Positions 1-60,644 of a DNA stretch of 64,000 nt are shown here, piece after piece. Both the position numbers and the translations under genes were made by a program. Positions within the stretch are counted from its first letter, which is position 1, and the number at the start of each line of letters is the position of its first letter. The stretch is from assembly GCF_048128805.1 (NCBI RefSeq), contig NC_136019.1, positions 13,942,905 to 14,006,904 on the forward strand, given 5' to 3'. The notes beneath the pieces were generated by a model that did not search any database, was not told the origin of the DNA, and saw only the letters and a program-made list of their open reading frames with translations. Source of the DNA: Centroberyx gerrardi (taxonomy: Eukaryota > Chordata > Actinopteri > Beryciformes > Berycidae).

Positions 1-13286
<13,286 letters not shown>

Positions 13287-17169: not shown

Positions 17170-17190
17170 GATTGACTAACAGGGCTCAAC

Positions 17191-17829
17191 ATGTTTACCC
17201 TCAGCTATCTGTTGTTTACTCTGGGTGTGCTTAACTTCAAGGGAGCCTCTGAAACACAGGGCAAAGTGTCACTATCAGATGCTCCTATTGAGGTCCGTGA
17301 CTACAATGGCAGCCTGTACGCTACCTGTGAGATGAAACCCAGCACCACGTTGCCTCTGGGTCAACCACAGATCTACGGACAGGTCCTATTCAAACAAGTC
17401 TACCCAGCTGGCCGAATGCAAATCATAGTCAGCCTCCGGGGCTTCCCCACCAGGGAAAGTGAGCGTGCTATCCACATCCACCAGTTTGGGGACTTGAGTA
17501 AAGGCTGCAGTGCAGCTGGACCCCACTTCAACCCCTTAGGGCAACACCATGCCAACCACCCAGGGGACCTAGGCAACTTCGGTTCCAGCCGTGGTCAGGT
17601 CCACGCGTCGGTCACAGCCAAAGTCACGTTGTTTGGGACTCAGTCAGTGCTGGGGCGTTCAGTCGTCCTCCATGAGAGGAAGGATGATATGGGCAAAGGG
17701 GGGGATGAGGAGAGCCTAAGGAGTGGGAATGCGGGCCAGAGAATTGCCTGCTGTGTCATCGGAATGAGCAGCTCCAGCTTGTGGGAAAATACAGCAGAGT
17801 CTAGCTGGGAAGATTCTGCTGAAGAATGA
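17191..17829 (+). CDS. sod3: sod3, extracellular Cu/Zn superoxide dismutase (212 residues, one coding exon)
   Basis: Secreted enzyme that dismutates superoxide to oxygen and hydrogen peroxide outside the cell. The first ~19 residues are hydrophobic (FTLSYLLFTLGVL), consistent with a signal peptide. Metal-site motifs are all present: HIHQFGD gives copper ligands His95 and His97, His112 in AGPHFNP is the bridging ligand, His120 and Asp126 flank GDLGNFG, and His161 in VVLHERKDD is the last copper ligand. Cys106 and Cys187/188 can form the intrasubunit disulfide. GDLSKGC and the extracellular-type layout separate it from cytosolic SOD1. A polypyrimidine tract and acceptor (TTTTTTTTACAG, exon start 17170) precede the ATG, so there is an intron in the 5' UTR. 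The C-terminus is acidic and Ser-rich (SSWEDSAEE) and lacks the Arg/Lys heparin-binding cluster of mammalian SOD3. It looks intact. Confidence 0.95.
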   Translation: MFTLSYLLFTLGVLNFKGASETQGKVSLSDAPIEVRDYNGSLYATCEMKPSTTLPLGQPQIYGQVLFKQVYPAGRMQIIVSLRGFPTRESERAIHIHQFGDLSKGCSAAGPHFNPLGQHHANHPGDLGNFGSSRGQVHASVTAKVTLFGTQSVLGRSVVLHERKDDMGKGGDEESLRSGNAGQRIACCVIGMSSSSLWENTAESSWEDSAEE

Positions 17830-41146: not shown

Positions 41147-44100
41147 TCACTCAGGGTTTGCTGGCTTCATTACAGCCCAGGTGAAGTCTTCTCTTTTGAA
41201 CATTTTTTTCAGGGTGGGCCTTGAATTCCAGCCTTGGTTTTTGGCAAACTTGTAAACACATCCGAAGAGATCAGGAAATACCAACATCAGATCAATGTTG
41301 GCTGCATCTTCAGCACTGTAAACAGAGAAAGAAATTATGTAATTAAGTAATGAACACTCAATTCACCAATCCCTGACAGTGGTCTACTTTTGATGACCCC
41401 GGTTGTATGGTTACCTTGTGTCCTGTCCTACAGTACGTCCTGTTTAACTCTGTCCTGATTCTTGTCATCTATTGCTAAACTAATGAATAATAATAAAAAC
41501 AAAGTTTACAAAGTGCTTCACAATCAAGAAAACAACAACAACAAAAAAGACAGAAACAAGGTTACAAAGCAAAGAAGAGGACAGTGGCAAAAACTGACGT
41601 GATCGTGAATGTGGGTGTGATATGGACCCTTGTTAGGGCAAGGGGTGGAGGAGGGGGTAAAGTTATACCAACAAATAAATATAGTGGAACAATGGTGGAA
41701 TAAAAACATAATTAAATAAGTGCATGCCAATAGAAAAATGCCTGCTTGAGCTCCTCTAGGAGGCTGCTCCAAAGAGGAGGTCCGGACAAAGGCCCAGTCT
41801 ACTTTGGTCTTTAGAACAATTAGAAGTCCCCTGTCCAGGAATCTAATGTTGCACTTTGGCTCATAAGGGGTGATGAGGTCAGATATATAACTGGGGTCAA
41901 ACCTATCTGTGCTTTAAAAGTTACCAAGAAAATCTTAAAAGTCAGTTGAGAAACCAACAGGTCACCAGAATAAGGGTGATGTAATTTCTTCCGTTAGCAC
42001 CAGTTAAAATCCTATCAGATGCATTCTGTACAAGTTGGAGAGACTTTTGATGTAGACAGGAATAAAGAGTTGCACTAGCTCAGGAGAAGAGTCCAAGAGG
42101 AAATAAATGTATGAATGACTTTCTCCAGATTGCTGAATGATGAAAAAAGCTTCAAGAAATTATTCTTAACTGAATGAAACAGGACTACAACTCGCTTTCC
42201 CAGAACATCAAAGCTAAGGTCAGCATTTATATTAGCGCACTGAGTGCAAAGTTCATTTTGAATTAGATTTATGGTATTTATGGTATGGTATGGTATGGTG
42301 CTAAATTATGGTATTACAGGTGCCAAACAGTGCTCTTTCTGAATTGCAGCTGCCTTTCTTTAAAAAAAATTCAAGACACAAGTATAATTTTCATTTTCAG
42401 TATTTACAAATTACCGTAAGCATGGCTTTGCTGTGACATTTTAAGGTTATTTATCATTTTAACCTCAGTCTAACTTACTAGTGCTCAAGGAGGTTGCGTA
42501 TGAAGCGCAGTAATCCCAGTGTGTTGTCAGGGTATTTCTTCTTCATCTTCTTGCCATCCATCTTCTGGACCAACTCTGGAGGCAACTGGAAAACCAACAA
42601 AATTACTGATAAAGTTGCTTCCACGGAAATAGAAGTGCAGCAACAGTTATGTCGCAGTTACCTTGTTTTTCCACTGACTGAAGAATCCATTTTGGTCCAG
42701 TTCACAGATTAGTGTCTGGTCAGCTTCTTCATATTTCGCCACCTCTGTCTGATTACCAATCTTTCTCAAGTATTCTACTTTCCTGAAAGAGAGTTATACT
42801 TCAGGCTACATGATTTACAGAAAGTACATAAGTTAAAACAAAAATAAAAGTAACTTCTTGTCAAATCATATTGATCTAAAATGTTGTAAAACAGCCTTGA
42901 AAATATGTAGATAAAAACATGTCAGTGAATGAATGAAAGAAAGAACAGCCAAAGTAGCATCAAAACTGTATGAGAAAGGCATGACTTTAAATAATTTTCA
43001 TTTGCATGTCTCATTACAGAGCGAGCAATCAATGCAATAGTGAAGCAATGGACAAGATTTTGGTTAGAATTGATTGGGGTGATGGAAAAGATGAGAAAAT
43101 AGGGTCCAGGACAAAAATGGCCAGTTATATTTAAATTGCTTCTTCCTCACCTTTCATTGGGCCAAAAGAAAGGATGAGCCAAACATTCCTCCACTGTAGG
43201 TCTCTTCTTTGGTTCTCCATTGATCATGTCCTCAATGAGATCCTTTGCAACCACGTCTTGAACATGTTCCAGACTGTAGTTCCCTTTGTGAATGTTGTAC
43301 TCACATTCAAAGGATTTGCCAAACGGATGGTTTCCTCCAGAGAGGATGTAATAGATCAACATCCCTGCCACCTTAAGAATTAGCATAACAATTTAGTAAT
43401 TACAGAATGATTTTTCACTTCATTAATTAAATTGCTCTCTAACAGAAAAGAACAAACCTGTATATCAGTGCTCCACTTGTATGGTATACTAATATCTTCT
43501 TCCAAAGTCTCTTTGGCCATCCAGCATTTGGTTCCTGCACCTCTTGTGTGTAAAGTTGTTTTTCCTTCAGGTAATCGTCGGCTTATGCCAAAATCAGCTA
43601 ATTTTGCCCTCCTATTAACATCTGCAGGACAAATGGCGTAGACCAAGTCAATAAACGGTGTTATATGTATAGCTATATAGATCAAAATAAATTTCAACAT
43701 TGATGTATACTTATTAAATTTTGGAAAGTGAATTGCATATTTCCTCAATTCTTTCTTGTCTTACCAATCAAGACATTCTGGGGTTTGAGATCCCGGTGAA
43801 GAATCTGAGGATTTTGACGATGAAGCACACTTAAACTATGGAGAACCTGATGCACAAGTTCTCTCCTCATTTCAGAGAGACTGTCTTCTGGAAATTCACG
43901 TCTGATATATTCTTCCAGGGTGTATTCACATAGCTGAAGAATAAGGTAACCAAAGTTCTCATCCTCTGTAAAGTCAACGTATCGTACAATGGACGTATCG
44001 TCAAGCTCTGGAAGCCGTAAAAATCCTTCCTCATTCTTCAGCACCTGATAGCTGGATTTAGACATTCTCTTAACTGCGACTTCAGTGCCGTCACTTCTCA

Positions 44101-45697
44101 GCCCCAAGAAGACTTCAGTTCCATCACTTCCCTTTGCTATGTGGAATTCCACATCTTTCACATACATAAGGCTTCCAACTCTGGTTACTTTACTTTCATC
44201 AGTGTTAGCAAGCTTCTCTAATTTTTTCTTCCATCTCTCGCTGACTTTATGCCATTTCTGTGGCTTTGATGATGTACCAGTGTTGGGGAGGAATGGCTTA
44301 ACATTTGAACTTTGAACAGAATCTGCAACAGGAAGTGCTGTTGGGACACTTGCAGCAGAGCAAACTTCATCATTTGGCTCCTCTGGCTTTTTCTTCTTCA
44401 TTTTCTTGGATCCCGGTAACGCTTTACTGGTTGGTGTAGAATCTTCACATTCTGAGTTTGGTTTGTTGAAATGAATTTGCAATCCTATAATGATTTCTTT
44501 CAGGCTGTTATTACTTTGCATATCTACAGATGTCAGTATATCCTCAGGAACTGAAGTTATTCCCTTTGATGTAAAGATGTCAGCTGCATGCTCAAATGAA
44601 AGCAAGTTAGCAAGTATGCCATATGTGTAGACTCTCACATCAGAGGTGTATTCTTTCTTAACAAAAAGAGCGATTGTTGTGCATAATTTCTCAAGGAAAA
44701 TCTGATTCCATCCATTTTTGACTGTTTTCTGTGTAATCACATAGATTGTTTCCAGAATAGCTTTCAGTACATCAGGACTTCGTCTTGAGGAAAGTCTTTC
44801 CAGCAGTTGGGGGATCATACCCAGTGATATCTCATTTGGTATCTCTCTCATTGTGCAGAAAACTGATTGTAGACTTTGAACAACTGAAGATGTGAAATTT
44901 TCCTCTGGAATGTTTGGAAAGCGTTTGACTGCATCTGCAATGTAGGAGTTCAGATTTCCTGTGTCCTTCAGCCATATGATACTTCTCTGACGGTATTGTT
45001 CGGCATTTGGCCCAGTAACAGTAAAGAGTACTTCACTTATGGTCAGATGGGTCTGAGGATCCTCCTGCAGCATGTGACTGTCAAACATCTTGAAAACTTC
45101 TTGTGGTGTTTTCTCTCGTACAGCAATTTGCAGATCGACAAAATGTTTTATTTTGGAGCAGAATTCGTTACCATTTGATGCAAGGTTATGTATCACTTTG
45201 GATATTTTTTTATTGTTTTCAAGATCTTGAGGTTGTAGCACAAGGAATAGTGTTATCTTTGCACCAGCACAGATTAGCTCTTTCACGATATCGTCTCTGT
45301 CATGGATGGCAGCAGTTTGCAGTGGTGTAGCATGTAGGATGGGATTATCCACTCCATTTGAATTAGCTTTTGCTTCAAGCAATTTCCCCACAAAAACAAT
45401 TGGAGCTTTGGATAATGAGGCATAATGCAAAGGTGTCCACTTATTATTGGAAGCCTGGTTTGGGTCTGCACCCTGACGTAGCAAGAAATTACAAATATCC
45501 TCCTTGTGATTCACAACAGCAGCAATCAAAGGCGATATTACATCATTCACCTCTTTGCATGGGTAAAGTCCATTAATGTCATTGTCCTTTAATGATTTCT
45601 TGAGCTTTCTGAGTTTGTTGTCAATTATACACTGTATTATAGGATGTGTTTCTCTTGGGATGACTGTAGTCACTTGTAACTGTTGGAAGAAATCCAT
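41147..45697 (-). CDS. Copy A: ankyrin-kinase-KEN protein, RNase L/IRE1-like endoribonuclease (904 residues, intact)
   Basis: Six coding exons with matching phases: 43765-45697, 43458-43621, 43151-43371, 42662-42782, 42479-42585, 41147-41315 (2715 nt). Layout: about three ankyrin repeats (residues ~55-150), an alpha-helical HEAT/ARM-like middle (~165-410), a disordered linker with a Lys-rich stretch SKKMKKKK (430-437), a protein kinase (~505-770) and a KEN nuclease (~773-904). The kinase keeps a Gly loop [12 protein letters not shown], Lys543 in [15 protein letters not shown] (634-641), DFG (654-656) and HPFGK, so it looks catalytically competent and IRE1-like. KEN keeps [12 protein letters not shown] with Arg843, Asn844 and His848 at the RNase active positions. 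By family knowledge such domains dimerise on nucleotide or ligand binding and cleave RNA. The ankyrin part is much shorter than RNase L's nine repeats, so 2-5A sensing is doubtful. A splice acceptor (CCCCACAG, exon start about 45715) shows a 5' UTR intron. Confidence 0.85.
41770..42110 (-). mobile_element. Decayed LINE in intron 5 of copy A
   Basis: In broken minus-strand frames one can read [23 protein letters not shown] and, further on, KAQIGFxPSYISDL, corresponding to LINE reverse transcriptase landmarks LQLVQNAAARLLT and YKALNGLAPSYISDLL. Stops and frameshifts are frequent. A shorter version is at the same intron position in copy B, so this insertion predates the duplication. Confidence 0.65.
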
Positions 45698-45715
45698 TTC
45701 ATCACTTCAGAATAA

Positions 45716-48700
45716 CTGTGGGGTGACAAAAGTATGAGGTTAGTGTAACATTTGGTGCCTTTTGAAACTTTAAAGTAGCCCAGTTATGCAACTACTGACA
45801 GAAAGAGTTTTGCCACTGTGACCTCTATTGATAGATGATTTTGATTATCAATATCCATTTGATTATCACTATTCAATATATGCTAATTTATCATTATTTC
45901 AATTAAATTTACAACACAATTCACATCACAATTAATATTCTTGATCATCTCTTCTACCGAAAATGTGAAAGGCCTTTGTCAATGGCGTTGATTTACTAAA
46001 CTCTCACCTATGGCAAAGTCCCAGCATCTAATATCATTTCCCACCATAACTTCCAAACCAATGCAATGCTATTATTTGGTCAGTGAGCTAAATTATTAGA
46101 TGTAGGTCACCAAACACACACTGTTCAGAGTGAATACTAGTCCTAAATGCTTCCCTGATGTGATTTTTTAAAGATATGGCTTCCAAATAAATTCTAGCAA
46201 TTTTTGCTTGTTTTTTGCTCTACATTATTATGATAAAAACTACATGGGCAAATTTGGACTCACTTGGGCTAAGGTATGGAGAGTGCCACACCTTGTCCAA
46301 CCCAACTGTTTTAAGACTTTGAACTTCCTCATTCAGACTGGCAACAGGAATTCAACTTTCAATGTTCACAGCTGTGAAATAAAAATGTTCTTTGATCTTA
46401 CAAGGTACAATGATTAAATCTTGTGTGGGTAACTAGATATTCATAAACAAGGTGATTTGAAGATATCCCTGAGGCCAAACTGTTTTACCTTAAAGGATAA
46501 TTACAGTTATTTTCAACCTGGGTCCGATTTTCCAAATTTTTGCCATAGTTCAAAATTTTGTCACAGCTGTAGAGCTTCATGTGCCTCCAATTTGCTGCTG
46601 CAGGGAGCGTTGCTCTCCAATACAGCGGGCCAACACAATCGCCAACAGTTGAACCAAAAAAACGATTACAACACATCCTTTCAACACAATAACACTCACA
46701 CTGCAGTTACACACGTCTTTAAATAGCTGTGAACAGTTGAACTGAACAGTTATCACAAGGGTCAGTTCAGTTACAATAGTCCATCTGATACTTTTTAGTG
46801 TTGCTTTAAAGTCTGCAGCACAAAACGCTACAACAATAAGGCCAAATGCACATTTTTACAAGTAGAATTAAGGAGTGAAATTTGATGCTTTTTCATTTTG
46901 AAAATCAAAGGTGAGTTCCACCTTCGCCGTCTCTGATAGGCTAGTGAACAGTTAATGGATAATTACATACTGTAGTGTTAAAAATCACAAGTCACCACCC
47001 TCGTTATTATCCCCAATCACCACTCCCAACTCCATGTTCACCTCTATTGGTGCCCTGGGAGGTGAAGCCACTCCTAGGAAGTTATATAAGCCTCACCTGG
47101 TAAGCCTTAGATTCCTTTCCCTCCAGGCCTCACTTGAACTTTTCATTCCACCATGTGACATTCAGTTAAGATTCATTATTTGATTGAATGTTTAATTTAT
47201 TGTTATTGTGTTTAGATCCCCATGAATAGTCAGAATTGAAGAGACTACCAAGTTGATGGATGCATTAAATAATGTAAGTTGGAAAGGTAATGATAACCTT
47301 TGTTGAACCTTTATTGAAATACTACTATGTTTACTGTTTTTCTGATTTACTTTATTTTTATACAGACAAATCATCCATGCTCCTTGATCCCTTGCTTCAA
47401 TGTGCACCCCAGTCCAGACGTTCTTCTGTGAACTAGCACCAACATTGCAGTTTTTTCACATAGTGTGGCCCGGAAAAAGATCAAATGGTTTCAACTTTTG
47501 ACATATGACCATATAAATATGAAATATGAATATATTCAGAAACTTTAAGAGTTTGACTTGTAGATGGAAAATAAGCTTTTTAGAACTAACGTAACCCATT
47601 CCTATACAGAATATAGGTCTGTTTTGGTAACTAGGTAGGAAGCTAGTGTTGTCTCCATAAATTAGCCAATGCTAACGTTAACTTAGCTCTGCCTTAACTT
47701 CGGTAGGTTGCTTGTTGTTAACATCAGGACAGGAAGGCTAAACTTGTTTTTTATGACCTGCAAGTAATTGAAAATGCTTTGCAACTTCACTTACTTAAAG
47801 GGATATGCCACCTACAAAGACTATAGTTTTTTCTCCTTCAGAATAGCGGGCAGCAATATCCTCAACCTCTTCACTGCCGTTTATTAGTTTTCCCCGGTAT
47901 CAGTACCCATGCCACATGCTAACAGTTAGCTTACATATGTCATTCTCATTTATTTACAATGTCCCCCAGCCACTTTTTTTTTTAAACAGTGCATTAAATA
48001 TGTTAGAGCAGAGGTTTTCAAACTGTGTGCCGCAAGGTCAAGTGAGGCAAAGTCAAGTGTGCCTGGAATTTCAGACCTTAATGCATTTTACTCATAGTCT
48101 AACTTAGCTTCACAAAATCCTGAGAATTTTCAATGCAGCATAACTAGTAATTTGTATAAGCAGTCACTTCCTAATATTGGCTATTTCATGTTTTAAAATT
48201 ATTTTCTATTTAATTTTATCCTATTTGCTCAGTCCAAGTGGACCTGATTCATGTCTTCTGTCCATCTGGCTGATGGGAGTTATATTTCTTGTGGGCCTAA
48301 TGGAGGCCATACTAGACCATGGTGCAAAGTTTCATGGCTCTAGCATTTACCATCTCACGGGAAATGGAGAAAAGCTCTGACGCATCTATAATGCAATTAA
48401 CTCATAGGCTATGCAGCATCTACATTTGTGATCATCCTTTTTGACTCCATACATGAAAATGACGTAGTTTCTATGAATTATATTGCATCACTTAATTCAT
48501 AAAATGTTTTTTTTTAGTACATAGCAGTGGTATTTGTACTGTTATTGAAACTGTACTTTTTTTTATAATTTAGAATTCACATCAACAAGATTTGATTTGG
48601 CCAATCCTGCTCATTGACCCCTCATGTGCGTGCATGTGTGAGATATCTTTGAATACAATATAATGATAATATGTGTTATAAGTAATTATATTATTTTTTT

Positions 48701-49147
48701 TTTTAGTTATTATTATTCTAAGTAATTATGACTACACTTACATGAGGTGTGCCTTGAGATTTGGCTTTGACCTTTGGTGTGCCTCAGCCCCAAAAATATT
48801 GTTTGCTATGTTTTTATTATCTTGTCATTTTACATACTGTGAAGCACTTTGTAAACTGTGTTTTGTGCTATATAAATAAAGTTTATGACTATATTATTAT
48901 ATATTGGATAATATTCTATGGCATATTCTTACCTTGAATTCTGGTAAAAATGAATGAATAAATAAATAAATGAATAAATGAATTAATTAATTAATAAAAA
49001 CACACACAATACATATATATTATATTATATATATTGTCATGAAATTATAGAAATGACTTCCTATACCTTTTAACTATTTATTTCCTGACAACTCCTTCTT
49101 TTCTGCCATCAGCTTTGTGTCAATGTGAAGAATAGGGAGAATCCAAG
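45716..49147. other. 5' flank of copy A; no gene seen
   Basis: The first ~450 bases match the flank of copy B (CCAAACACACACTGTTCAGA near 46109 and 61634). Beyond this the two copies differ. A TATA-like AAGTTATATAAGCC at about 47078-47091 has no supported open frame behind it. The rest is AT-rich, with an AATA/AATG tract near 48948-48995. The 5' UTR exon of copy A should lie here but was not located. Confidence 0.5.
48829..48893 (+). mobile_element. LINE 3' tail, plus strand
   Basis: The stretch GAAGCACTTTGTAAACTGTG followed by TGCTATATAAATAAAGTTTATG is the usual 3' end of fish L2/Rex-type LINEs, here with no attached coding part. Confidence 0.6.
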
Positions 49148-49578
49148 ATGAAGTGACGACATGTTCACATTACATTAGCCTACCTAAAGTGTACAGGATA
49201 TTCTCGTTCCTATGTTCAAATATCCACTTCTCACCATAAACAAGTAGAAGTAAATCGTATGCAGACCAATCTTTGTTTTCCATTCCATCTATCTGAGTTC
49301 AATTGATGATTGAAAAATACATACCAGGGTTCTTTTGAGGTGCGAGCCCGTGTGATGTGGGTCTGATGAGTGCTCTGTGCGCTCCCTCTACCTGTGCCCG
49401 TCCCTTCCTGGACACACCTATACATTATACACCCTGTGCACCCAATTACCACCACCAAGTGCCCACAAATATGAATACAAAATATAGGCTATTTGTATAA
49501 AATAAATTAGACATAACATAAACAAACATAAAGAATACTGTACTGATATGGTAAACTTACCATATCAAAGTATATTGT

Positions 49579-49579
49579 C

Positions 49580-49636
<57 letters not shown>
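49579..49636. repeat. (CT)n microsatellite
   Basis: About 28 CT units with a single TTT interruption, marking the left border of the repeat patchwork. Confidence 0.92.
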
Positions 49637-49640
<4 letters not shown>

Positions 49641-50205
49641 ATATTCTGTTCTGCCAAGTTACTGAACAGGTTGGATTGGTTGAGGTTGGGCAGGGAGAGT
49701 TAGGGTGAGTCATGGAGAGGCATCTGAAGATTTTTCAATGTGATAAAGCAGAATAGTACAAGCACCAGCATATAACTAATAACAATGATTCTGTCATCTG
49801 TGCCTACAGTATATTGGTATAAAACTCTGTCTCAGATGTTGTTTCAGCGTCTCTCACTGATTCTCATGTGGAACCATGTCTGTGTATCAAGAGGAGAGGA
49901 TGGGAGGTGGGAGTGTCTGGTGGGTTTGGGGTTACATGGCATGAAAATGTAAGGAAACACATTCTTGACAAAAACGGGTTACTGAAGAGAAAAACAAAAA
50001 ATACACTTTATCCTGCACTCCATGTTACTGTGAGGACATGGGCTGCAGTACCTCTTCAAACCATTTGGTAACCTTGTAATTAGCAGCAGCAGCAGTGCTT
50101 CTTGTAAAACATGTGACTTCCATGAGTGTTGGGCAAACACAATATGTTTCTATCTGACTTACTATCAAGAATTACATGAATTTTTCCTGTAATTGATAAA
50201 CTATG
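49637..50205. repeat. Block X, first copy
   Basis: An approximately 565-bp non-coding block (starting CATTATATTCTGTTCTG) repeated at 51010-51571 and 52614-53172 with few differences. It is interrupted from its neighbours by LINE-containing blocks, giving an X-Y-X-Z-Y-X order. Confidence 0.85.
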
Positions 50206-51810
50206 AATCAGCTTTATTGGCACGACAGGAAAGAGACCTATGTTGCCAAAGCAATACAGTGGTTCAGTTGTAGTAACATTGCAAACATTAACCAACCAAT
50301 AATATATGAATATCAACAATTATAACAACAACAATATAATCAAAAGCCATTTATCAACAATTAAATTAAATTCAGGCATTTAACACACGTGGTGAACAAA
50401 GTGTCACAGCAGAGATTTGTAACTAGCTCTTCTCTCTGAGGTTGTGGCATTCTGATACAAACTTTGCTGCTAGTGGCATGGATTTATCAAATGATAACTT
50501 CTGTTCTTGTGGGAGGAAACCAAAGTTTGGGATTATTATTTCAAATTTGGGATAATACGCTTCTCTAATTATTTGATACTTTGGGCAGGACAGCAGGAAA
50601 TGTGTCTCAGTTTTTACCTCCTGTCGATCACAACGATCTAATCTTTGTTCTCTTGGCTTCCAAGATTTTGAGTGTCTCCCTTTTTCAATTTCTAATTTCT
50701 AATCACAAATCCTATATTACGAGAGTATTTTTCTTTCTTTTAATGCAGGGAGTTGAAGATAAATTTCCACTTTGATCTCTCTGTCTAGTTGTTATGATTT
50801 CGGTTCTCCAGTGTTTTGTATAGTTTGATTTTAAGAGGTGGTCAGTTTGTTTAATTTGGGACTTGAACCTGGGCTTCTTTGGATCATGGTCCTGATTAAT
50901 GCTAGTGAGCTGTTCAGCAAGTTGGCTAAGATGGTCTGCATTTGTGGAAAGATTATTATTAAAAAATGCTTTGTATTGAATTAAGTTGTGATCTGACTCT
51001 CTCTCTCAACATTATATTCTGTTCTGTCAAGTTACTGCAGGTTGGATTAGTTGAGGTTGGGCAGGGAGAGTTAGGGTGAGTCATGGAGAGGCATCTGAAG
51101 ATTTTTCAATGTGATAAAGCAGAATAGTACAAGCACCAGCATATAGCTAATTATAATGATTCTGTCATCAGTGCCTACAGTATATTGGTATAAAACTCTG
51201 TCTCAGATGTTGTTTCAGCGTCTCTCACTGATTCTCATGTGCAACCATGTCTGTGTATCAAGAGGAGAGGATGGGAGGTGGGAGTGTCTGGTGGGTTTGG
51301 GGTTACAAGGCATGAAAATGTAAGGAACACATTTGTGACAAAAATGAGATACTGAAGAGAAAAACAAAAAATACACTTTATCCTGCACTCCATGTTACTG
51401 TGAGGACATGGGCTGCAGTACCTCTTCAAGCCATTTGGTAACCTTGTAATTAGCAGCAGCAGCAGTGCTTCTTGTAAAACACGTGACTTCCATGAGTGTT
51501 GGGCAAACACAATATGTTTCTATCTGACTTACTATCAAGAATTATATGAATTTTTCCTGTAGTTGATAAGCTATGATTGGGAACAGGATTGTGAAGCTAA
51601 CAAGTTCACTATTGAAAACGGTCAAAAGTCTGTCTTTGAATGCTTCTGCATTAATTTATTGGCAGGATGCTACAGGCAATCAACCAATAAGGGTCGTATT
51701 TTGTTGCTGTTGTCATAGTTGCTGCTATTTTCTTTATTTTGCTGCTGTTGTTGTTTTGTTGTTGCTGCCGTTTTCTTTTTAGTCGTCTCTGTCTCTCAAA
51801 TTCAAATTCA
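50206..51810 (-). repeat. 1605-bp tandem unit 1, carrying a LINE 3' fragment
   Basis: Matches 51811-53205 at a constant offset of 1605. Its first ~570 bases are the 3' part of a non-LTR retrotransposon on the minus strand: RLDRCDRQEVKTETHFLLSC, the C-x-H-x-C C-terminal signature of such elements, and a 3' end at the sequence GCTTTATTGGCACGACAGG (shared by many fish LINE tails). The open frame at 50581-50775 is identical to that at 52186-52380, so the duplication is recent. Confidence 0.85.
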
Positions 51811-53205
51811 AATCAGCTTTATTGGCACGACAGGAAAGAGACCTCTGTTGCCAAAGCAATACAGTGGTTCAGTTGTAGTAACATTGCAAACATTAACCAA
51901 CCAATAATATATGAATATCAACAATTATAACAACAACAATATAATCAAAAGCCATTTATCAACAATTAAATTAAATTCAGGCATTTAACACACGTGGTGA
52001 ACAAAGTGTCACAGCAGAGATTTGTAACTAGCTCTTCTCTCTGAGGTTGTGGCATTCTGATACAAACTTTGCTGCTAGTGGCATGGATTTATCAAATGAT
52101 AACTTCTGTTCTTGTGGGAGGAAACCAAAGTTTGGGATTATTATTTCAAATTTGGGATAATACGCTTCTCTAATTATTTGATACTTTGGGCAGGACAGCA
52201 GGAAATGTGTCTCAGTTTTTACCTCCTGTCGATCACAACGATCTAATCTTTGTTCTCTTGGCTTCCAAGATTTTGAGTGTCTCCCTTTTTCAATTTCTAA
52301 TTTCTAATCACAAATCCTATATTACGAGAGTATTTTTCTTTCTTTTAATGCAGGGAGTTGAAGATAAATTTCCACTTTGATCTCTCTGTCTAGTTGTTAT
52401 GATTTCGGTTCTCCAGTGTTTTGTATAGTTTGATTTTAAGAGGTGGTCAGTTTGTTTAATTTGGGACTTGAACCTGGGCTTCTTTGGATCATGGTCCTGA
52501 TTAATGCTAGTGAGCTGTTCAGCAAGTTGGCTAAGATGGTCTGCATTTGTGGAAAGATTATTATTAAAAAATGCTTTGTATTGAATTAAGTTGTGATCTG
52601 ACTCTCTCTCTCAACATTATATTCTGTTCTGTCAAGTTACTGCAGGTTGGATTAGTTGAGGTTGGGCAGGGAGAGTTAGGGTGAGTCATGGAGAGGCATC
52701 TGAAGATTTTTCAATGTGATAAAGCAGAATAGTACAAGCACCAGCATATAGCTAATTATAATGATTCTGTCATCAGTGCCTACAGTATATTGGTATAAAA
52801 CTCTGTCTCAGATGTTGTTTCAGCATCTCTCACTGATTCTCATGTGCAACCATGTCTGTGTATCAAGAGGAGAGGATGGGAGGTGGGAGTGTCTGGTGGG
52901 TTTGGGGTTACAAGGCATGAAAATGTAAGGAACACATTTGTGACAAAAATGAGATACTGAAGAGAAAAACAAAAAATACACTTTATCCTGCTCTCCATGT
53001 TACTGTGAGGACATGGGCTGCAGTACCTCTTCAAACCATTTGGTAACCTTGTAATTAGCAGCAGCAGTGCTTCTTGTAAAACACATGACTTCCATGAGTG
53101 CTGGGCGGGATATGTTTCCATCTGACTTACTCTCAAGAATTATATGAATTTTTCCTGTAGTTGATAAGCTATGATTGGGAACAGGATTGTGAAGCTAACA
53201 TGTTC
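51811..53205 (-). repeat. 1605-bp tandem unit 2 (partial)
   Basis: Second copy of the LINE-containing unit, preceded by an (AATTC)-type simple tail (TTCAAATTCAAATCAGC at 51801 on) that is missing from unit 1. Similarity to unit 1 stops at about 53205, just before a short telomere-like tract. Confidence 0.82.
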
Positions 53206-53213
53206 ACCACTGA

Positions 53214-53227
53214 CCCTAACCCTAACC
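53214..53227 (-). repeat. Short interstitial telomere-like tract
   Basis: CCCTAACCCTAACC, two and a third units of the vertebrate telomere repeat in the C-rich orientation, sitting exactly where the tandem repeat similarity ends. Confidence 0.75.
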
Positions 53228-54727
53228 ATGTATTTTTGTCTAAGAAGGCTTCAGCTATAACCAGTCTTCAATATCTAACTTCCTAAAACAACAAACCACT
53301 GCTTGATATTTTACTGTAATATAATCTATAGCACCTACGGTAACAAATTAAGCAGAGTTAGACAAACTGAGTAATATTATCTGTCTCTCAGGTCCTGGTG
53401 TATACTTTTTTCTTGTATAAAACAATAAGCACATTAAATTGATTGCAAAATACATCCAAGAACAGCACAAATTATATTTCTTTCCACACACTGGAATGTG
53501 AGCTGGATTTTTAGGACAACACAAACTGCCTTGTCCGATTGTCCACTCTCTTGACTTGATTCCTTCACAGCCTTTCCAAAGTGGTCGGACCTCTGAAAGC
53601 CTGAGAGGCCATGAGAATAGATAACAGGACAAGGCCCATGAGACAAAGTCAAGCTCAAGAACCTAAAAGGATTCCAAACACTGCTTGGCCCAGCTCTGTT
53701 ATTAATGACAGAAAAACTACATAGGAATTGATACTTAACAGTTCATTATATCCCTTCCCTCCCTCTCTTTTCCCTTCAAAAATGTGACTTTTTAGTGGAA
53801 CACGTTGGATGCAGAAGGGGAAATAAGGCACAGCCCCTAACTAACTCACAAGCTCAAGTCAGTGATGATGTGCTCAAAGATCTGAGTGTCAAGGGAAATT
53901 CACTATTTTGGGGGATAATAAGAGACAAATATCTCACCATTACTCAGAAATTCTGTCTACAATGCAACAGAGCAGTTTAACAAATTCCAATGCATATAAA
54001 CCAAACCCATTCTAATTTTTCATTCATATTTTTTATGGGGCAATAACATGAGTGGAAAAATTAACCAGGCATTCTGAGACCATTTCTGAGACACGGCCAT
54101 ACCTGTGATGTTGTCATATGTCCTGAAGTTCATCTCTATGTGGTCCCATTGGAAAACCATACAGCTCTCTGCACTGGAAACAGCAATTGCCACACAGACA
54201 TCATTCTTATGGGAGAATATGTCTAGCCAACACAGCTACAGCTAGTGTGTGTGGACTATAGACCATAGACTGTAAAAACATGCCTATACGTACCAATCTG
54301 GCTGCATGCACACACAAAGCCCACAAACAGGTAAGAGGTGATGTTGAAAAAAAAAAAAGGCATAAGAAAGGCAATGGATAAAAATATTTAAATGGAGGAT
54401 ATTGTTAAAATGCATTTTTCTTTATGGCAGTGAAGTCTGGGGCCTCTTATTTAAAGTTACTTATTGAAAAGTGGATAAAACCCCAACAGAACAGCTGCAT
54501 CCTGATTTCTGCAGGCACATTCAGCTTACCAACAGAAGCTCCTCTAAGCTGGCATCCAGGGCAGAGCAGGGCAGGATCCCCAGAAAAGAGCCTGCAAGTT
54601 CTGGACTCACCTGGTTCACCCTACTTATCTATCACAATCAATTTAATGGATCAGCTGAATTAATTTGAATTGAGTTTAATTTAAGTGTTATTGCATGTTT
54701 ATCTAGGGTATTATTTTACTAGGCTAC
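53228..54727. other. Spacer between duplication copies; no gene seen
   Basis: AT-rich sequence without recognisable coding or mobile features. Minor open frames at 53348-53658 and 54424-54668 lack family resemblance, splice context and codon bias I could support. Confidence 0.5.
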
Positions 54728-54786
54728 TGCCCTTCAAAAACCATACTGGCTGAAGCCTAATCTGTTCTGTACACCCCAAAACTCAC

Positions 54787-55014
54787 TTTTTCCAAACGTG
54801 ATAAACTTTGTGCTTTTATTTTGAAGGCTAACTAGCTAATCGTTGCGTCTGGCTTGACGCGCTTTGAGTGGGCGTGGGCGGGCTGGAGCGCTCGTGCCGT
54901 TTACCAACAACCCGTCAGCTGTGTCAAACCACACACATAACCAGAATAAGACCTGAAGTAAAGTGAGTTTGCCTTCAAAATTAAAGCGCAAAGTTTGTCA
55001 TGTTTGAAAAAAGA
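54787..55014. mobile_element. Foldback (inverted-repeat) element, complete only in the right duplication copy
   Basis: The left arm (54787-54832, core AAACTTTGTGCTTTTATTTT) is complementary to the right arm (54968-55014, core AAAATTAAAGCGCAAAGTTT) over about 46 bases with few mismatches. The loop between is about 135 bases. In the left duplication copy only the left arm is present (about 38929-38975). Confidence 0.65.
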
Positions 55015-55333
55015 GAAAGTATTGGTGTGAAAAGTAACAAATCCTTACGTTATACTGTGAAAATGATATTTAAGAAAGCAAGACATACATTTTGATTCAC
55101 TACAGATTCCCTCTTAAATGAGTTACAGATTACATTCTTAAATCGCCTATTCAGAACAACACCCTTAGTCTTTATTAGGCCTAAAACTAGAGAATTTGTC
55201 TCAAAAACTCATAGAACATGTTAGATGAGAAATGTATGTATTTTTTCATGTATGCACATACTGTTATTTGAATTGCACTATTATCTTAACATGGACCATT
55301 ACAAATGAAAAATGTTTGAAAAAGTTTAGTTTC

Positions 55334-55351
55334 TTAGGGTTAGGGTTAGGG
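55334..55351 (+). repeat. Interstitial telomere-like tract (TTAGGG)3
   Basis: Three perfect TTAGGG units, absent at the matching site near 39540 in the left duplication copy. A further two-unit tract (AGGGTTAGGGTTA) is at 61911-61923. Confidence 0.85.
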
Positions 55352-56285
55352 TTTCATGATTTTCAATAAGCAATGCACTACATTTTATATGGCCTACAGA
55401 CTGACCAGTCATATATGATTAAAAATACTGTTGTATAAAAACATGAGTAATAACACATATTACAGATAATCTCTTACTACTGCAAAATTGATTACTGCAG
55501 TTTCCTTACAGGACATGAATTAAACATCTTAAATCATATCTTAAATCACATTGTTTTCACAGTGGCACTTTCACAAGAGCAGTTAGAGATATTTCTAATT
55601 CAGGCCCATAGATGGTGCTACAGGCCAAACAAAACAATTAGAAAGCGTCACCATATATATGCAAAACTTTATGAGATTGAATATTTACAGATAAGCATTA
55701 ATTACTACCAGTGTACCATCCAATATGCCGTTTTCCTGCACTATGTTGTTGGAGTCATACAGTGTGAACAGTGGGACATGTTAATAACAATTCCATCAAA
55801 ATTTCTCATGTGATTTGTCTCTGACTGGGTACTGGACTCTTGACTAATTTCTCAAAGTGCTTTGAGTCCACCTCACTTCAAGTCACTGAGTCCAGACTCT
55901 TGAACTGGGACACTGAGACTTCCCTCAAGGTTTGCTGGCTTCATTACAGCACCGGTGGTGAAGTCTTCTTTTTTGAACATTTTTTTCAGGGTGGGCCTTG
56001 AATTCCAGCCTTGTTTTTTGGCAAACGTGTAAACACATCTGAAGAGATCAGGAAATACCAACATCAGATCAATGTTGGCTGCATCCTCAGCACTGCAAAC
56101 AGAGAAAGAAATTATTATTCCCAAGTAATGAACATTCAATTCACCAATCCCTGACAGTGGTCGACTTTGTGGATGACCCCAGTTGATTGGTTACCTTGTG
56201 TCTTGTCCTACAGTATTTGCTGCATAAGTCTCTGTTCTGACTTTTGTTTGTGGTGTAATTTATCTGGTAACTATTGCTAAACCAA

Positions 56286-56304
56286 TTAATAATAATAATA
56301 CTAA

Positions 56305-56348
<44 letters not shown>

Positions 56349-56373
56349 ATAATAATAATAATAATAATAATAA
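56286..56373. repeat. (AAT)n(ACT)n(AAT)n trinucleotide repeat in intron 5 of copy B
   Basis: About 29 trinucleotide units. Copy A has only a short AAT/ACA tract at the same site, so it expanded after duplication. Confidence 0.9.
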
Positions 56374-56534
56374 ACAGAAACAAGTTTACACAAGGTGGGT
56401 GTGATATGGACTCTTGTTAGGGTAAGGGGTGGAGGAAGTGTAAGGTTATAGCAACAAACCAATAAAGTGGAGCAACAGTGGAAAGAAAAACATTAAATAA
56501 ATGTGCAGTGATTTAAAAGATGACACCAACTGTG

Positions 56535-56725
56535 CCTGCCTGAGCTCCTCCAGGAGACCGCTCCAAAGAGGAGGTCCGGACAAAGGCCTGGTCTACTTTG
56601 GTCTAGATTAATGACTAGAAGTCCCCTGTCCAGGGATCTAATATTGCACTTTGACTCATAAGGGGATACAAGGTCAGAGATATAACTTGGGGTAAAACCT
56701 ATCTGTGCTTTAATAGTGATTAGCA
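56535..56725 (-). mobile_element. Decayed LINE in intron 5 of copy B
   Basis: The minus strand reads KAQIGFTPSYISDLVSPYES and LRSS-like IRSLDRGLLV, matching LINE reverse transcriptase landmarks. It is the counterpart of the relic at 41770-42110 but truncated at its 5' end. Confidence 0.65.
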
Positions 56726-59700
56726 AATAGAGATGGCAATACAGTTTGACTTGGTGGTATGGTTCTACTCTTGGGGATGCTTCCTGCTGCAGTAATACAG
56801 CATAACAGCATAGTAATACATAGCATGATAAGTAAGGGAGCATTGCAAATAACCCCCATGGGAATGAACTTAGAAATAAAGACCCTCCAGGGAGCATACA
56901 AACAGAGCAGAACCACAGTAGGTGGAGGCTGGGGTGGAGGAGGCTCTTGCAAATAGCAGCAGCCGTAACAGCGGGTGTGAAATACTGCTCTTTCTGAACT
57001 GTCTTGTGAAAAAGTTTGAGACATGCAACACTTTATGTCAGCAAGGCTTTAAAAGTTGCATGGCTATCTGAATTTCTAGATTTCAGGGTATAGCTGCGTA
57101 TTACCAGCATAGCAATAGAAACCGATATTGTCTATGGATAATGTATGAATCATTTGCTGCATTAATGAGGGCAACCTCTGTGCTGTGCATTGTTCTTAAA
57201 CCAGATTGAAATGTCTCAGATATATGTCAAAAGAATGGACCAAAAACAGAAAAAAGTATAATTTCTAGTTTCATAATTTCCAAATGAATAAGGATGGCTG
57301 TCCTGTGACATTTGAAGGTCCTGTATCATTTTAACCTCAGTCTAACTTACTAGTGCTCATGCAGGTTGCGTATGAAGCGCAGTAATCCCAGTGTGTTGTC
57401 AGGGTATTTCTTCTTCTTCTTCTTGGCATCCATCTTCTGGACCAACTCTGGAGGCAACTGGAAAATCAATAAAATTACTGATAAAGTGGCTTCCACGGAA
57501 ATAGAAGTGCAACAACAGTTACGTCGCAGTTACCTTGTTTTTCCACTGACTGAAGAATCCATTTCGGTCCAGTTCACAGATTAGTGTCTGGTCAGCTTCT
57601 TCATATTTTGCCACCTCCGCCTGATTACCAATCTTTCTCAAGTATTCTACTCTCCTGAAACAGAGTTGTACTTTAGGCTACATGATTTACAGAACGAACA
57701 TAACGTAAAACAAATCGGTGGAATTTTGTCGTATCATATTGATCAAAAAATGGTGTTGTAAATAAGCCATGGAAATATGTATACGAAAACAATGAAAGAA
57801 CAGCCAAGGTAGCATCAAAACTGCATGAAAAAGGCTTGACTTTAAATAATTTTCATTTACATGTCTCATTACAGAGCGAGCAATCGATGTGTTGAACAGA
57901 CATGCTTTGGGTAGTTTTGGAGGTTATTTTTCAAGTGTCCACTGGCCCTACAGAACTGCATTGAACAGCTATGTATGCTAGCAAGCAGGATATAATAGTG
58001 AAGCAAATTACAGGACTTTGGTCAGAATCAATTGGTGTGATGGAAAATATGCTTCTATCTCACCTTTCATTGGACCAGAAGAAGGGATGAGCCAAACATT
58101 CCTCCACAGTAGGTCTCTTCTTTGGTTCTCCATTGATCATGTCCTCAATGAGATCCTTTGCAACCACATCTTGAACATGTTCCAGACTGTAGTTCTCTTC
58201 ATCAATGTTGTACTCACATTTATAGGATTTGCCAAACGGATGGTGTCCTCCAGAGAGGATGTAATAGATCAACATCCCTGCCACCTTAAGAATTGACATA
58301 ACAATTTAGTAATTACAGAATGATTTTTTACCCAGTCATCAATTAAATGGCTCCAACAGAAAAAAAAAACGAACCTGTATATCAGTGCTCGATTTGTATG
58401 GTATATCAGCATCTTCTGTCAAAGTCTCTTTGGCCATCCAGCATTTGGTTCCTGCGCTTCTTGTGTGTAAAGTTGTTTGTCCTTCAGGTAATCGTCGGCT
58501 TATGCCAAAATCAGATAATCTTGCCCTCCTCTTAACATCTGCAGGACAAATGGCATAGACAGTAAATTATGTTATACGTTGATCAAAATAAATTCCAATA
58601 TTGGTGTATACTTTTAAAATTTCAGACAGTGAATTGCATGTTTACTAATTTCTTACCAATCAAGACATTCTGGGGTTTGAGATCCCGGTGGAGAATTTGA
58701 GGATTTTGATGATGAAGCACACTTAAACTATGGAGAACCTGATGCACAAGTTCTCTCCTCATTTCAGAGAGACTGTCTTTTGGAAATTCACGGCTGATAT
58801 ATTCTTCCAGGGTGTATTCACATAGCTGAAGAATAAGGTAACCAAAGTTCTCATCCTCTGTAAAGTCAATGTATCGTACAATGGATGAATCATCAAGCTC
58901 TGGAAGCCGTAAAAATCCTTCCTCATTCTTCAGCACCTGATAGCTGAATTTAGACATTCTCTTAACTGCGACTTCAGTGCCGTCACTTATTTTCAGACCC
59001 AAGAAGACTTCAGTTCCATCACTTCCCTTTGCTATGTGGAATTCCACATCTTTCACATACATGATGCTTCCAACTCTGGTTACTTTCCTTTCATCAGTGT
59101 TAAAAAGCTTCTCTAATTTTTCGTTCCACCTCTCACTGATTTTATGCCATTTCTGTGGTTTTGGTGATGGACCAGTGTTTGGGAGGAATGGCTTAACATT
59201 TGAACTTTGAACAGAAACCAAAACATGAACTGCTGTTGGGACACTTGCAGCAGACCAAACTTCATAATTTGGCTCCTGTGGCTTTTTTGGCTTTTTCTTC
59301 TTTTTCTTCTTCTTTTTCTTGGATCCCGGTAACGCTTTACTGGTTGGTGTAGAATCTTCACATTCTGAGTTTGGTTTGTTGAAATGATTTTGCAATCCTC
59401 TAATGATTTCTTTCAGGCTGTTATTACTTTGCATATCTACAGATGTCAGTATATCCTCAGGAACTGAAGTTATTCCCTTTGATGTAAAGATGTCAGCTGC
59501 ATGTTCAGATGAAAGCAAGTTAGCAAGTATGCCATATGTGTAGACTCTCACATCAGAGGTGTATTCTTTCTTAACAAAAAGAGCGATTGTTGTGCATAAT
59601 TTCTCAAGGAAAATCTGATTCCATCCATTTTTGACTTCTGTTTTCTGTGTAATCACATAGAGTGTTTCCAGAATAGCTTTCAGTACATCAGGACTTCGTC

Positions 59701-60644
59701 TTGAGGAAAGTCTTTCCAGCAGTTGGGGGATCATATCCAGTGATATCTCATTTGGTATCTCTCTCATTGTGCAGAAAACTGATTGTAGACTTTGAACAAC
59801 TGAAGATGTGAAATTTTCCTCTGGAATGTTTGGAAAGCGTTTGACTGCATCCGCAATGTAGGAGTTCAGATTTCCTGTGTCCTTCAGCCATATGATACTA
59901 CTCTGACGGCATTGTTCGGCATTTGGCCCAGTAACAGTAAAGAGTACTTCACTTATGGTCAGATGGGTCTGAGGATCCTCCTGCAGCATGTGACTGTCAA
60001 ACATCTTGAAAACTTCTTGTGGTGTTTTCTCTCGTACAGCAATTTGCAGATCGACAAAATGTTTTATTTTGGAACACAATGCATTACCTTTTAATGCAAG
60101 GTTATGTATCACTTTGGATATTTTTTTATTGGTTTCAAGATCTTCAGGTTGTAGCATAAGGAATAGTGTTATCTTTGCACCAGCACAGATTAGCTCTTTC
60201 ACGACATCGTCTCTGTCATGGATGGCAGCAGTATGCAGTGGTGTCCACCTCTGTAGGATGGGATTATCCACTCCATTTGGATTAGCTTTCGCTTTAAGCA
60301 ATTTCCTCACAAAAACAATTGGAGCTTTGGATATTGAGGCATAATGCAAAGATGTCCACTTATTATTGGAAGCCTGGTTTGGGTCTGCACCCTGACGTAG
60401 CAGGAAATCACAAATATATCACAAAAACCTTCTTGTGATTCACAACAGCAGCAATCAAAGGGGAAATGTCATCATTCACCTCTTTGCATGGGTAAAGTTC
60501 CTTAATGTCATTGTCCTTTAATGATTTCTTGAACTTTTTGAGTTTGCTGTCAATTATACACTGTATTATAGGATGTGTTTCTCTTGGGATGACTGTAGTC
60601 ACTTGAAACTGTTGGAAGAAATCCATTTCATCACTTCAGAATAA

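Follow-up and report, generated by a model that had tools for sequence, protein, structure and literature searches.

We analysed a stretch of 64,000 nucleotides from the fish Centroberyx gerrardi (contig NC_136019.1, positions 13,942,905 to 14,006,904; hereafter the window), in which a gene, here called gene A, encodes ankyrin repeats, a protein kinase and a KEN nuclease domain, and a second gene, gene B, is its close relative. Gene A lies on the minus strand (45697-41147) and has 6 coding exons, with GT-AG borders at all five introns and an in-frame TGA four codons 5' of its ATG, and encodes a protein of 904 amino acids. By Pfam, protein A contains Ank_2 at residues 58-149, with ankyrin matches confined to 55-149 (3-4 repeats), Pkinase at 522-768 (E 3.7e-37), and Ribonuc_2-5A, the KEN nuclease, at 775-857 (41 bits against a cut-off of 23.3, E 2.3e-10). 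A first-pass annotation of this DNA had described two neighbouring genes with the domain order of RNase L, and had proposed a profile search of the 904-residue product; both Ribonuc_2-5A and Ank_2 came out above cut-off, in the predicted order of ankyrins, kinase and KEN. Its reading that there is no visible transmembrane part also held. We found no clear transmembrane stretch in protein A (Kyte-Doolittle, 19-residue mean), the hydropathy peak of 1.58 falling at residues 136-155 in the last ankyrin repeat, and an IRE1-type lumenal sensor and transmembrane segment were not found by sequence, Pfam or hydropathy. An Rfam search of the window gave 0 matches at the gathering score.

Gene B (60626 to about 55873, minus strand) has six exons in the same structure as gene A, and the likeness of the two exceeds chance, because their DNA is 92% identical over 2787 aligned columns. 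Its frame is broken after codon 66 by a 10-base insertion, leaving an open reading frame of 72 residues, and 3' of the insertion one frame is open for 864 codons across all five splice junctions. Thus, the description of two neighbouring ankyrin-helical-kinase-KEN genes stands for gene A and, owing to this frameshift, in part only for gene B. The coordinates of the exons are collected below.

Exons of genes A and B, in positions of the window
Feature	Position	Strand	Content
Gene A exon 1	43765..45697	-	ankyrin repeats (Pfam 55-149), helical middle (about 150-430), Lys-rich linker, kinase N-lobe to a stretch of 11 residues (letters not shown)
Gene A exon 2	43458..43621	-	DFG and activation segment (11 residues, letters not shown)
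Gene A exon 3	43151..43371	-	kinase C-lobe with HPFGK, HPFFW
Gene A exon 4	42662..42782	-	KEN start, Trp810
Gene A exon 5	42479..42585	-	KEN active site Arg843-Asn844-x3-His848
Gene A exon 6	41147..41315	-	KEN end (FPDLF...Y), stop
Gene B exon 1	58657..60626	-	frame broken after codon 66
Gene B, 10-base insertion relative to A	about 60418..60427 (within a few bases)	-	A/B alignment
Gene B exon 2	58375..58538	-	
Gene B exon 3	58064..58284	-	
Gene B exon 4	57534..57654	-	
Gene B exon 5	57351..57457	-	
Gene B exon 6	55873..56092	-	runs to end of open frame

The tandem pair noted in the first-pass annotation is part of a larger array of four copies, with A and B in the window and two further copies, C and D, beyond it. 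A genome-wide search with protein A (779 million bases; the best 50 of 193 candidates were scored, so that the counts are lower bounds) gave at least 51 matches, at least 26 of which fall within C23:13984054-14029572 and make up the four copies, in one orientation and 12-15 kb apart. The remaining matches, at least 25, all fall in the kinase part with scores no higher than 58.5 bits and include two exons of the IRE1 gene on contig C7, and among the matches listed from these 50 scored candidates we found no further array copy elsewhere in the genome. Copy D is intact (929 amino acids, all splice sites). In copy C (L023:7317-9163) the Lys-rich linker is deleted and the frame is lost, with a stop at codon 454, and in its exon 5 the active-site Asn844, kept by A, B and D, is replaced by Ile. 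The array therefore holds two intact copies (A and D) and two broken ones (B and C).

The kinase of protein A retains the IRE1-like motifs HRD, DFG and HPFGK, as had been reported, with Gly526, Lys543, Glu556, His634-Arg635-Asp636, Asn641 and Asp654-Phe655-Gly656 all in place, and an activation segment is present and carries Thr residues. RNase L is changed relative to IRE1 and the fish protein at Arg635, Lys638 and Gly656 (A numbering), and keeps the equivalent of Lys543. Within the KEN domain, A and D share Trp810, Arg843, Asn844, His848, Phe862, Pro863, Leu865 and Tyr870 with RNase L and IRE1, and Arg843-x4-His848 corresponds to the R-x4-6-H motif of KEN/HEPN RNases. The available part of PMC3710099 describes KEN as an HEPN RNase with this motif, fused to kinase and ankyrins, and lists such fusions; the fish protein shares with this superfamily the R-x4-H spacing and the polar residue after the Arg. 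The order of ankyrins, helical region, kinase and KEN does not occur in that part of the source, and the words fish and Danio are absent from its main text.

We investigated the relationship of these proteins to RNase L and IRE1. In a tree of kinase and KEN together (8 sequences, rooted on yeast Ire1), the fish proteins grouped with mammalian RNase L (99/99), as they did in a tree of the KEN domain from the same 8 sequences (97/97), and human IRE1 and the genome's own ern1 were sisters apart from the fish proteins (99/99). The KEN domain of A is 29-30% identical to that of RNase L and 21% identical to that of IRE1, and of the KEN columns that are uniform within each of the three groups and in which just two of the groups match, 6 join fish with RNase L, 2 join fish with IRE1 and 3 join RNase L with IRE1. 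Approximately unbiased (AU) tests gave p 0.0056 for a grouping of fish with vertebrate IRE1 and p 0.0137 for one of RNase L with vertebrate IRE1, values that are too favourable because the groups were chosen with the tree already in view. An earlier tree, of 6 sequences, had resolved into three pairs and did not separate the hypotheses. These results place the fish proteins on the side of RNase L and not of vertebrate IRE1, a placement that is provisional because long branches are involved.

A search of the whole genome with pig RNase L, in which the best 63 of 141 candidates were scored, gave at least 36 matches. Four of the 36 listed are the array copies, covering about positions 296-469 of the query (the stretch before the kinase and the N-terminal part of the kinase itself). 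Among the rest are one weak kinase match (contig C2, E 9e-4) and 31 matches in the ankyrin part, one of which reaches position 319. The pig RNase L matches listed included no second RNase L locus, and the array is, by sequence, the closest relative of RNase L found in the genome. Pattern searches for relatives gave 20 matches in viral contigs and 93 in genome contigs, none of them a relative.

RNase L is described in the available part of PMC4730318 as having nine ankyrins and a pseudokinase, with 2',5'-oligoadenylate (2-5A) bound by ankyrin repeats 2 and 4 together with the pseudokinase. By pairwise BLAST in a file of four sequences, the ankyrins of the fish protein pair with repeats 2-4 of RNase L at 31% identity across 96 columns (E 2e-7; contacts read by eye). 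Of the eight 2-5A contacts of RNase L, which we take to be Trp60, Asn65, Gln68, Lys89, Phe126, Glu131, Tyr135 and Arg155, protein A retains none in the better ankyrin register; in a second register, which scores almost as well, a single contact is matched, Trp60 by Trp87 (1/8). We did not find an OAS exon in the genome with the OAS1_C profile or human OAS1, an empty answer that alone shows nothing; as a control, DZF_N, whose fold is related to that of OAS, matched 12 exons of this genome. Because none of these contacts is kept in the better register and no OAS exon was found, 2-5A looks unlikely as the trigger of the fish protein, and to this extent the earlier suggestion of a different trigger survives. 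Residues 150-430 gave only one match in the PDB, at E 0.81, and no Pfam family above cut-off, with weak matches to ARM_CPL3, ARMC9_ARM and Herpes_BTRF1, the last of which we took as chance; that this middle region is ARM-like is a guess. A Lys-rich stretch at about 431-437 in A is longer in B and D.

The explanation that we favour, at a little under an even chance, is that A and D encode soluble kinase-RNases of the RNase L lineage whose sensor differs and whose trigger is probably not 2-5A. In the architecture that we propose, 3-4 ankyrins, a helical and perhaps ARM-like region and a Lys-rich linker would stand in place of the nine RNase L ankyrins, followed by the kinase and KEN. The ankyrin-helical region would bind some ligand or partner, allowing two or more molecules to pair through ATP-loaded kinases; the paired kinases may phosphorylate Thr residues of the activation segment, and pairing would join two KEN domains, so that RNA would be cut as in IRE1 and RNase L. 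Such proteins would presumably use ATP, be expressed, answer to a trigger other than 2-5A and have a role in defence or stress.

Several findings weigh against this reading. The AlphaFold model of A residues 1-420 is poor (mean predicted local distance difference test, pLDDT, of 48.7), being helical throughout with pLDDT block means of 55-77 at 291-410. No site resembling an interferon-stimulated response element was found near A or B, with one pattern in the 64-kb window (copies C and D lie outside it); the pattern matched once, at 7418, far from the array, where 1.12 matches were expected. A meeting of long branches was flagged by the tree tool, and few sequences were sampled (8, with all long branches included). 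KEN exons were not matched by pig RNase L among the genome matches listed. A search of the genome with the Pfam KEN profile gave 2 exons, in two IRE1 genes elsewhere in the genome (contigs C7 and C3), to which we assigned the labels ern1 and ern2; the KEN exons of the array, which introns divide, escaped it. Because both searches failed to pick up these exons, the evidence that there are no further KEN genes is weak.

The kinase sequence also weighs against the favoured reading. In phmmer comparisons the score is 177 bits with human IRE1 and 103 with RNase L, the kinase columns join fish with IRE1 at 22 positions and with RNase L at 7, and the tree of the kinase by itself gave no resolved grouping. 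A kinase identity of 37% to human IRE1, as against 29-31% to RNase L, and the retained HRD and DFG might suggest a derived paralogue of vertebrate IRE1 (ern1 or ern2) that has lost its lumenal and membrane parts and gained ankyrins. We consider this origin very improbable, as human IRE1 and ern1 stand together apart from the fish proteins, the AU test rejects the grouping and the segment preceding the kinase can be aligned with RNase L. Moreover, all five introns of A are placed differently from the 8 introns of ern1 on contig C7 in this region, which lie 4-12 alignment columns away (ern1 borders were taken from tblastn, with splice sites unchecked).

In the KEN domain, A and D (and B, by the same letters) have Gly837 where RNase L (Asp661) and IRE1 have Asp; we take Asp661 of RNase L to be an important active-site residue. 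The domain is also 10-13 residues shorter than in RNase L and IRE1, with the gap before FPDLF, and the two changes together may harm activity; in the kinase, the APE motif reads AKE. The protein could therefore be a pseudonuclease, whose KEN no longer cuts RNA and which acts through its kinase or as a scaffold, in keeping with the kinase motifs being its best kept part. This is unlikely in our view, since Trp810, Arg843, Asn844, His848, Phe862-Pro863 and Tyr870 are retained, in line with selection acting on the active site. We also searched intron 5 for an overlooked exon that might encode the absent KEN stretch; the one candidate, conserved in A, B and D, was dropped because by eye it resembles transposon coding sequence.

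A further alternative is that the array is a fish co-orthologue of RNASEL, still triggered by 2-5A or by a related oligonucleotide from another nucleotidyltransferase, in a reshaped pocket. The RNase L clade in the tree and AU tests, and the position of the array as best RNase L match among those listed with no second locus found, agree with this possibility, as does an aromatic residue, Trp, of copies B, C and D that aligns to RNase L Phe126, and the match of Trp87 to RNase L Trp60 in the second register. We note that PMC6307210, in the part available, counts fish among the animals with OAS, in contradiction to the premise of the first-pass annotation that teleosts lack it; we make no claim of OAS absence in fish at large. 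Of the 20 modelled OAS species in that part of the source, the elephant shark is named and no bony fish. Co-orthology of this kind is rather unlikely, given the 0/8 contacts in A in the better register, the failure to find an OAS exon in the genome and the shorter ankyrin region, and neighbours (SOD3, CCDC149 and LGI type) that are unlike what we take to be the surroundings of human RNASEL. Thus, of the simple orthologies considered at the outset, a paralogue of ERN1 is set aside by the tree and AU tests, and co-orthology with RNASEL keeps the modest chance given here, the array being the closest RNase L relative found in the genome.

The neighbouring genes are, on one flank of the array, a Sod_Cu gene (SOD3-like, at 17176-17826, with a Cu/Zn superoxide dismutase domain of 118 bits) and a CCDC149 gene, and on the other a gene with EPTP repeats, of LGI type. 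We take this to be the vertebrate DHX15-SOD3-CCDC149-LGI2 block, with DHX15 read by eye and unconfirmed by Pfam.

Finally, we examined the history of the copies. In introns 1-4, B and D differ at 12 of 693 aligned sites, and A differs from D at 124 of 627 (about 0.20 per site, a figure that forced global alignment may inflate) and from B to the same extent, by which B and D are recent duplicates and A is older. Over the exons, A and D have a synonymous rate (Ks) of 0.061, a nonsynonymous rate (Ka) of 0.040 and a Ka/Ks of 0.65, and A and B a Ka/Ks of 0.75. The greater closeness of the A and D exons than of their introns fits gene conversion or selection on exons, and the middle region (residues 150-415; 43765-45697 against 58657-60626), with a Ks of 0.023 for A and B and 0.066 for A and D, makes patchy gene conversion among the copies likely. 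With these ratios and possible conversion, constraint on the array genes is weak or masked; the Ka/Ks of 0.65 between the intact copies points to weak constraint, and two of the four copies are broken. If the array were a young tandem family in decay, with little function in this fish, this would account for the frameshift of B, the truncation of C with its Asn844 as Ile, and both Ka/Ks values. We regard such decay as improbable, as the reading frames of A (904 codons) and D (929 codons) are uninterrupted and every splice site is present, and their exons (Ks 0.06) are closer than introns 1-4, subject to the alignment effect noted above.

Repeated sequences lie within the array. Between A and B, at 49624-53349, there are tandem 1.6-kb units, 98.5% identical over 1410 columns, and similar units recur near 64-66 kb of the extended stretch; their open reading frames resemble retroelement remnants by eye, and the one tested gave no Pfam match. 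A transposon-like coding remnant (YISDL...PYEP) is present in the last introns of A, B and D (intron 5; A 41316-42478, B 56093-57350) and predates the duplications, because it is common to all three.

Compared with RNase L (PDB 4OAU, 4O1O), the fish protein has the same ankyrins, linker, kinase fold and KEN, and likewise no visible membrane part, and the KEN of RNase L is the closest to its own in sequence and tree, with 6 KEN residues shared against IRE1. The two differ in that RNase L has nine ankyrin repeats and a pseudokinase reading HQD and DFD, whereas the fish protein has 3-4 repeats with a helical region and keeps HRD and DFG; in the fish protein the 2-5A contacts listed above are not kept, KEN is shorter and Asp is replaced by Gly. 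With IRE1 (ERN1/ERN2; PDB 5HGI, 2RIO) it shares the kinase motifs (Lys, Glu, HRD, DFG), HPFGK and the KEN Arg, Asn and His, but has N-terminal ankyrins in a protein with no lumenal or transmembrane part, a KEN nearer to RNase L and other intron positions. Because the nine ankyrins, the pseudokinase, Asp661 and the 2-5A contacts of RNase L are not found in it, the fish protein is not to be filed as RNase L, although it may still work like RNase L. We found no account of such a fish protein in a search of the open literature, in which many results were unrelated and subscription papers were mostly beyond reach; genes of this kind, we assume, may be listed in public databases under automatically assigned names of the type RNase L-like or IRE1-like.

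RNase L has been known as a pseudokinase that is coupled to OAS and 2-5A. A wider proposal, which we hold to be possible though doubtful, is that the fish proteins form a separate cytosolic kinase-RNase branch on the RNase L line, which would have retained an active kinase, replaced the 2-5A sensor by an ankyrin-plus-helical one, and served as an RNA-cleaving sensor of stress or viruses in fish without OAS. If the favoured interpretation is true, a relative with kinase motifs and another sensor, in a genome where no OAS was found, would show the line before or beside its tie to OAS and 2-5A. The two intact natural copies beside two broken ones invite a comparison of selection, and the fish protein offers a direct way to ask what else switches on a cytosolic KEN nuclease.

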